Shown in pieces: positions 41,602 to 45,897 of a stretch of 64,000 bases of DNA. The DNA is taken from contig NZ_REFZ01000001.1 of the NCBI RefSeq assembly GCF_003841465.1, positions 1 through 64,000 on the forward strand. Reading direction: 5' to 3'. Numbering within the stretch: the stretch's first letter is position 1; each line of letters starts with the position of its first letter. Position numbers and translations under genes: made by a program. This DNA comes from Natrarchaeobius oligotrophus (lineage in GTDB: Archaea > Halobacteriota > Halobacteria > Halobacteriales > Natrialbaceae). Under the pieces are notes generated by a model. The model was not told the DNA's origin and searched no databases. It was given only the letters and a program-made list of their open reading frames with translations.

Positions 41602-41811
41602 TCACTCGTCCGTTCCGTCTGGCTCGGGATCGAACAGGTCCGCGATGCGGCAATCGAAGTGGTCGGCCAGCTTGAACGCGAGCTCGAGCGACGGATCGTA
41701 GCGCTCGCGCTCGATCGCGTTGATCGTCTGGCGCGAGACTCCCACGGTCGCGGCGAGGTCCGCCTGGCTGAGATTCTCGGCCTCCCGATACGTACGGACG
41801 TCGTTTTTCAT
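41602..41811 (-). CDS. XRE-family HTH transcriptional regulator
   Basis: A 69-residue one-domain HTH protein: MKNDVRTYREAENLSQADLA, then ATVGVSRQTINAIERERYDP and the helix LELAFKLADHFDCRIADLFD. It is the classic YozG/Xre-like small repressor. Its start overlaps the stop of the DUF2178 gene (ATGA at 41808-41811). The double palindrome 19 bp before the DUF2178 start is the likely binding site. Confidence 0.9.
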   Translation of the reverse strand: MKNDVRTYREAENLSQADLAATVGVSRQTINAIERERYDPSLELAFKLADHFDCRIADLFDPEPDGTDE

Positions 41812-42248
41812 GAGTGGGTGTGCTGGACGTAGGTGTAAGCGACGCCGAAGACGGCGAACAGCCCGAGGTAGGCAACGAGCGCGTGCCTGATCGGACTCGG
41901 CACCGTGTACGTGCCCGTCACCGACAGCGCGACCATCGCCGGTACGCCGAAGACGACGACGTAGGCGAACGCGCCGATGGTCAATCCGCACGCTTTCAGT
42001 TCGATCTCCGTCTCGCGTTCGTCGAACAGCGGCGTCGACGTCGCCTTCCGGACGCCGACGTAGCCCAGAAATCCGAGCCAGTAGACGACGACCCCGGCGA
42101 AGACGACGATCGATTCCGGAACGACGGTCCAGAGCGCCGTGGCGAGAACCAGCCCAACCATTCCGATCGCCAGCGAGTAGTTCATCAGCCGCCGGTAGCG
42201 CTTGCGTTTCTCCTGTCGCTGCCGTCCGGCGGATATCGCGTCTGTCAT
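41808..42248 (-). CDS. DUF2178-like membrane protein
   Basis: A 146-residue protein with four hydrophobic segments (YSLAIGMVGLVLATALWTVV, IVVFAGVVVYWLGFLGYVGV, then two more) and the conserved cytoplasmic motif PLFDERETEIELKACGLT (DER motif). DUF2178 proteins are usually cotranscribed with a small HTH repressor, exactly as here. The role is unknown; the pairing resembles sensor-repressor units. Confidence 0.85.
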   Translation of the reverse strand: MTDAISAGRQRQEKRKRYRRLMNYSLAIGMVGLVLATALWTVVPESIVVFAGVVVYWLGFLGYVGVRKATSTPLFDERETEIELKACGLTIGAFAYVVVFGVPAMVALSVTGTYTVPSPIRHALVAYLGLFAVFGVAYTYVQHTHS

Positions 42249-42266
42249 GGTCGGTTTCGAGAGGTC

Positions 42267-42299
42267 GTAAAGTTTCCTTTACAGTAAAGCGTACTTTAC
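42267..42299. promoter_or_regulatory. Double operator: two copies of GTAAAG-N4-CTTTAC
   Basis: GTAAAG-TTTC-CTTTAC (42267-42282) and GTAAAG-CGTA-CTTTAC (42284-42299) are perfect 16 bp palindromes separated by one base, 19 bp upstream of the DUF2178 start at 42248. Two adjacent sites with centres 17 bp apart suggest cooperative binding of two dimers of the HTH protein encoded by the same operon, i.e. autorepression. Confidence 0.8.
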
Positions 42300-42351
42300 A
42301 CACCCACTTAATTCTGCCGCAGCAGGCGGCTCGAGGGACCGCCGCGGGCGT

Positions 42352-45538: not shown

Positions 45539-45897
45539 GTTCCGTTAGTCGTCGCTTGAACGTTTTCGTCCGGATCGGCTACGCACTCGTCGAGAACGGA
45601 CCCGAGCGCGAGATTCGAGGTCGAGTGCGAACGATCCGGCGGTCTCAGCTGGCTCATGGTGTGCATCATCTCGAATCGTCAGGGCAAGAAACCTCTGGTA
45701 GGGAGGATCGACTGAACGAGGGCTCCGAGACGGGATTACGCGGACGCTGTCTTCAGTCACGGACCGATCGCGTCCAGTTCGGTGGTCGACGGAACACAGT
45801 GCCAGCAGATCGTCTCATACGGATTGCTGTAACGATGTACCGGCGCACCCGCCGCCCGGGTCGCAGGTGCGCCGGTAATGACTTACAGTAAACCGTC
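45539..45897. other. Intergenic region with a long hairpin
   Basis: The 359 bp between the small membrane protein and the 3' end of the CoA-transferase gene have no credible gene. The hairpin at 45838-45877 is the main feature. Confidence 0.4.
45838..45877 (-). terminator. Hairpin with 12 bp arms behind the CoA-transferase gene
   Basis: TACCGGCGCACC (45838-45849) and GGTGCGCCGGTA (45866-45877) are perfect inverted repeats around a 16 nt loop, 20 bp beyond the stop codon of the minus-strand gene. Intrinsic hairpins are not needed for archaeal termination, so a stability role for the mRNA 3' end is also possible. Confidence 0.55.

Follow-up and report, generated by a model that had tools for sequence, protein, structure and literature searches.

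A two-gene operon of Natrarchaeobius oligotrophus, encoding a small membrane protein and a helix-turn-helix (HTH) protein, is preceded by two exact palindromes, and we consider it fairly likely that the pair forms an autorepressed module in which the release of the repressor is controlled by the membrane partner. Its probable role is to let the cell respond to some condition at the membrane. In the window, that is, the whole stretch of 64,000 nucleotides analysed, both genes lie on the minus strand. The first (42248 to 41808) encodes a 146-amino-acid, four-helix membrane protein of the DUF2178 family, of which it is a divergent member. The second (41811 to 41602) encodes a 69-amino-acid Cro/C1-type HTH protein, a predicted CylR2-like repressor lacking an effector domain. 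The stop codon of the membrane ORF and the start of the HTH gene overlap by 4 bp (ATGA).

The operator, located upstream of the membrane ORF on the coding (minus) strand, comprises 33 bp and consists of two exact GTAAAG-N4-CTTTAC palindromes, the TATA-proximal site 1 (GTAAAGCGTACTTTAC, 42284 to 42299) and the downstream site 2 (GTAAAGTTTCCTTTAC, 42267 to 42282). The single base between them (42283) is a T on the coding strand. Scanning of the window with up to 2 mismatches revealed no further site of this kind, the chance expectation being 0.28, and a pattern search with up to 3 mismatches found no double operator elsewhere in the 4.61 Mb genome. Chance is ruled out, since two exact sites stand against 0.28 near-sites expected in the window and no other double site exists genome-wide at that threshold. 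Only one single site with at most 1 mismatch occurs elsewhere in the genome, on contig C10; it was rejected as a target, having no matching second copy beside it, and was taken as a chance occurrence. The coordinates and the exact sequence confirm the initial annotation in its description of two perfect palindromes, one base apart, before a membrane gene and its overlapping HTH partner. Its further claim, that a distance of 17 bp is not quite two helical turns and would give a highly cooperative switch, was overstated. The centre-to-centre spacing of 17 bp amounts to about 1.6 turns, so that two dimers would bind nearly opposite sides of the helix, and a cooperative switch by the two palindromes is possible. 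The central CTTTAC-T-GTAAAG was also evaluated as a dimer site and rejected, because its half-sites lie 7 bp apart versus the 10 bp of GTAAAG-N4-CTTTAC, 10 bp being the usual half-site distance for this HTH fold. This register is disfavoured too by methanogen and Actibacterium sites that have the GTAAAG-N4-CTTTAC form and do not have the one-base junction of haloarchaea. CsmR of Haloferax volcanii, whose motif is TATCA-N4-TGATA, was set aside as a match.

Conservation of the operator was analysed in the family and across haloarchaea. A relative of the membrane protein is encoded in 43 of the 125 genomes of the family, and the double operator precedes the membrane gene in all 30 family loci fetched, with 20 to 24 of the 24 fixed positions, being kept even where the membrane proteins share less than 30% identity; in L017 the two sites are 16 bp apart and not 17. 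The exact 23-bp pattern GTAAAG-N4-CTTTAC-T-GTAAAG is present in 118 of 391 Halobacteria genomes, whereas the reversed control is present in none. The exact-pattern set, together with one related family searched with 1 mismatch allowed, provided 147 distinct sites, 124 of them directly preceding a membrane protein-HTH pair and 23 located elsewhere. Of 71 haloarchaeal HTH loci from a separate named collection, 66 have the membrane partner, which is accompanied by the double operator in 57 and lacking the full double operator in 9, some of which retain a single site; the other 5 loci have neither element, and none has the operator without the partner. The contig scan used the HTH alignment, that of the membrane proteins being too diverged for scanning. 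The initial annotation had read the palindromes as an autoregulatory double operator of the HTH protein, and had named their loss before orthologous operons as the observation that would speak against it; the operators were found in place (30/30), and the reading is borne out by these family operons and by the 57 of 71 haloarchaeal loci. Co-conservation of operator and HTH, nevertheless, requires autorepression only, and would also be expected of a plain autoregulated operon in which the membrane protein is an effector of transport, immunity or membrane maintenance that sends no signal to the repressor. The tandem pair of same-family membrane proteins found before one HTH gene in L060, L061 and L062 is likewise as expected of effectors. 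A third, degenerate palindrome is present about 16 bp after the second in six loci (L016, L018, L019, L020, L028 and L031). A fully haloarchaeal pair with its double operator was seen on a contig labelled Gemmatimonadetes (L246), which is probably misbinned.

When the 147 sites are aligned on the operator, a purine- and CG-rich BRE-like block appears at positions -20 to -14 and a TATA box (TTTA[AT]GT) at -13 to -7, both at a fixed distance, and the fourth arm, the CTTTAC of site 2, is retained at about 84-99% per position. The search pattern selected neither the BRE/TATA elements nor this fourth arm. The column statistics also give a T at position 16, the spacer base, in all selected sites. 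In the window the corresponding elements, both on the minus strand, are CGGCAGA (42313 to 42319) and ATTAAGT (42306 to 42312) as read on the coding strand. In archaeal promoters the distance from the TATA centre to the start is usually 25-27 bp, which places the predicted start at, or within a few bases of, the one-base spacer (about 42283). Judged from this distance, one palindrome should lie on each side of the transcription start, and a repressor bound to them would block the polymerase rather than TBP/TFB. The downstream palindrome would then lie within the predicted leader, which would suit palindromes acting as RNA hairpins in a 5' untranslated region. However, with the TATA box some 10 bp ahead of the first palindrome, the predicted start comes after this copy, which would therefore not be transcribed; moreover, the motif accompanies the HTH family in promoters that are built differently. 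An RNA element is thus very improbable.

Those other promoters are found beyond haloarchaea: methanogens, as well as further groups of the phylum, have relatives of the HTH gene that are accompanied by a membrane partner. In 24 of 40 methanogen-type upstream regions a site matching at least 10 of the 12 positions was detected, versus about 1% of shuffles, and in 23 of the 40 the second-best copy lies exactly 21 bp away, versus 1.3% of shuffles. In these promoters the site closely follows the TATA box, which the second copy overlaps. In the bacterium Actibacterium lipolyticum (Rhodobacteraceae) the membrane-HTH pair is preceded by two copies, GTAAAGCGTACTTGAC and GTAAAGCACGCTTTAC, which lie 38 bp from each other and overlap with -35/-10-like elements. 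The strongest argument that this HTH binds the operator is that the word and the HTH stay together in different lineages and in different kinds of promoter. The fixed spacings, 17 bp in haloarchaea and 21 bp in methanogens, indicate that geometry matters, although the spacing itself does not give the reason.

The HTH protein matches Pfam HTH_3 (E 4e-17), and its residues R27, Q28, T29 and N31, in the predicted recognition helix, are kept in 96-100% of 125 haloarchaeal sequences and are invariant in a 28-sequence alignment reaching beyond haloarchaea. From these sequence comparisons we strongly infer that the HTH protein binds the operator DNA. Its AlphaFold model (pLDDT 90) has, like CylR2, residues in strand conformation close to each terminus, and superimposes on PDB 9k3w and on CylR2 with query-normalised TM values of 0.86-0.89; phmmer gave E 2.6e-16 for the former and 1e-13 to 4e-15 for the latter. 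The closest solved structure, 9k3w, is that of the bacterial DR_2454 of Deinococcus radiodurans (57% identity), for which no paper was found in the literature search. LtnR of lacticin 3147 (Lactococcus) is reportedly a small HTH protein controlling its own operon, in which an ABC transporter and an immunity protein of the membrane are also encoded. The title of McAuliffe et al. 2001, as cited in PMC4239024, presents it as a transcriptional repressor of lantibiotic immunity genes. The nearest known system is CylR1/CylR2 of the cytolysin operon of Enterococcus faecalis. CylR2, a promoter-binding repressor (PMC3709268), has the same length and fold as the window HTH and is 44% identical over 91% of it, and both proteins have a co-encoded membrane protein. 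CylR1, the membrane protein of that system, is believed to pass on a peptide signal, although how it reaches CylR2 is described as not understood (PMC3709268). The initial annotation knew of no described signal for such a pair, a statement that does not hold in view of the CylR2-like HTH and of the role attributed to CylR1. The two systems also differ: CylR1 has three predicted membrane helices and the window protein four, and the window pair is archaeal with a TATA/BRE promoter. A divergent gene cluster, like the lanthipeptide operon under CylR1/CylR2, was sought beside the operator and none was recognised. Cys54 of the HTH is conserved in 98% of the 125 haloarchaeal sequences; its alignment column corresponds to CylR2 residue 55, which is a Cys in the MTSL-tagged structure 2xiu.

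The membrane protein was modelled with pLDDT 92 as four helices (residues 2-42, 46-69, 77-111 and 118-145). The window protein itself matches DUF2178 (PF09946) at E 0.03 with 14.9 bits, the Pfam gathering score being 22.8, whereas 27 of 33 aligned family members match at E <= 0.1, with a best value of 1.7e-7; it is through these relatives that it is assigned to the DUF2178 family. A PDB fold search with the model gave no match at E <= 0.001. DUF2178 (PF09946) and HTH pairs are already annotated side by side publicly, for instance on a Haladaptatus plasmid, while a literature search found no mention of DUF2178 and no function or operator described for such pairs. Between helices 2 and 3 lies a loop with a DER motif (residues 76-78), in which, among 55 sequences, D76 and E77 are invariant and R78 is kept in at least 90%. 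Given the basic N-terminus, this loop is predicted to be cytoplasmic, where it would suit a contact with another protein, a feature less expected of the plain operon.

The 23 sites that do not precede the pair mostly lie before exporters, lipoproteins or PF00144 serine hydrolases, some cases being unresolved: ABC exporter operons (L095, L103, L171, L176), DUF3887 plus alpha/beta hydrolase lipoproteins (L039, L094, L096, L100, L101, L161, L184, L186, L188) and secreted PF00144 serine hydrolases (L132, L166, L167), together with small two-helix proteins (L102, L105). Three genomes (G253, G146, G149) have two operators and one HTH match each, in a sequence search that could miss diverged copies, and their second operator, which precedes a lipoprotein or serine hydrolase gene, is presumably reached in trans. 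A trans regulon is thus predicted in relatives on sequence grounds. Exporter genes also neighbour the pair itself (L202, L209, L270 and, in one operon, L171), as PF00144 genes do in L238, L248 and L263; in L209, the native pair of Halobacterium salinarum, the ABC exporter comes after the pair. Such linkage is confined to a minority of loci, and in 63 pair loci with 5 kb of downstream sequence no exporter permease, lipoprotein or PF00144 gene was within reach. In L171 and in L100, L101 and L161, ABC exporter genes, the membrane protein and the HTH occur together, with the lipoprotein too in the last three, and the operator precedes either the exporter or the lipoprotein. The genome under study has its only detected double operator at the pair's own promoter, and the lipoprotein target has no match in it. 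A regulon, for which the initial annotation suggested a search, is thus seen in relatives and not in this genome. The off-pair targets and the genes adjoining the pair both point to the cell envelope, and the co-marked gene set suggests an envelope- or antimicrobial-type response. Marking of other genes in trans, and a membrane gene that stays beside the repressor and not with exporters or hydrolases, argue against the plain autoregulated operon, which we regard as unlikely, though deserving of real weight.

The genomic site of the pair is variable. Synteny with three same-genus genomes reaches about 41564 and breaks off shortly beyond the 3' terminus of the HTH ORF; the stretch from 41564 to about 45800 is unshared in the loci compared, and the pair is absent from all three of these genomes, which indicates that the module lies in a variable stretch and was gained or lost. 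A 78-bp stem-loop-like element (CTCATACGGATTGCTGTA...TTACAGTAA, 45814 to 45891) has three genomic copies whose ends are always identical, and further copies were seen in L351. A variable site and a Cro/C1-type HTH might indicate a phage-type or mobile-element switch, but the pattern was unmatched in a viral contig collection and no phage-type gene was recognised among the ORFs adjoining the pair, so this origin appears hardly probable. The same variability, with the patchy presence of the module (43/125 family genomes, 0/3 same-genus), the small overlapping genes and HTH autoregulation through palindromes, would agree with a toxin-antitoxin-like pair of toxic membrane protein and autoregulating HTH antitoxin. 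This is improbable: all NCBIfam antitoxin matches fall far below cut-off, the HTH groups in sequence and fold with CylR2 and not with HigA/HipB antitoxins, and in trans the operator is also found before exporter, lipoprotein and hydrolase genes.

In the membrane-controlled autorepressor that we prefer, HTH dimers would occupy both palindromes flanking the start, leaving TATA/BRE free and blocking RNA polymerase. Repression, presumed here for a DNA target that comes from the comparative footprint, would hold the pair at a low level. The four-helix protein, whose reading frame is translated immediately ahead of the repressor's, would hold or release the HTH according to a membrane condition, as proposed for CylR1/CylR2. 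In SdpI/SdpR of Bacillus subtilis a membrane protein relieves the autorepressor upon a secreted peptide, which provides a model for the proposed mechanism, although SdpR is of the ArsR type and the window HTH of the Cro/C1 type. By analogy with these systems, signalling through the membrane protein to the repressor is plausible. More tentatively, and with somewhat less than an even chance, the pairs of archaea and bacteria could constitute one phosphorylation-free membrane-to-promoter family, in which a four-helix DUF2178 protein would sense an envelope condition and control a CylR2-like repressor by binding it, and one operator word with lineage-specific spacing would drive exporters and surface hydrolases.

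A few peptide systems of bacteria are known to contain membrane-coupled repressor pairs, of which the module described here would be a widespread archaeal branch. The sharp operator, the predicted start geometry and the predicted targets make the question of how CylR1 acts on CylR2 testable in model haloarchaea. If the membrane partner controls the repressor, the module would provide archaea with a simple route to read their envelope, and DUF2178 with a function.
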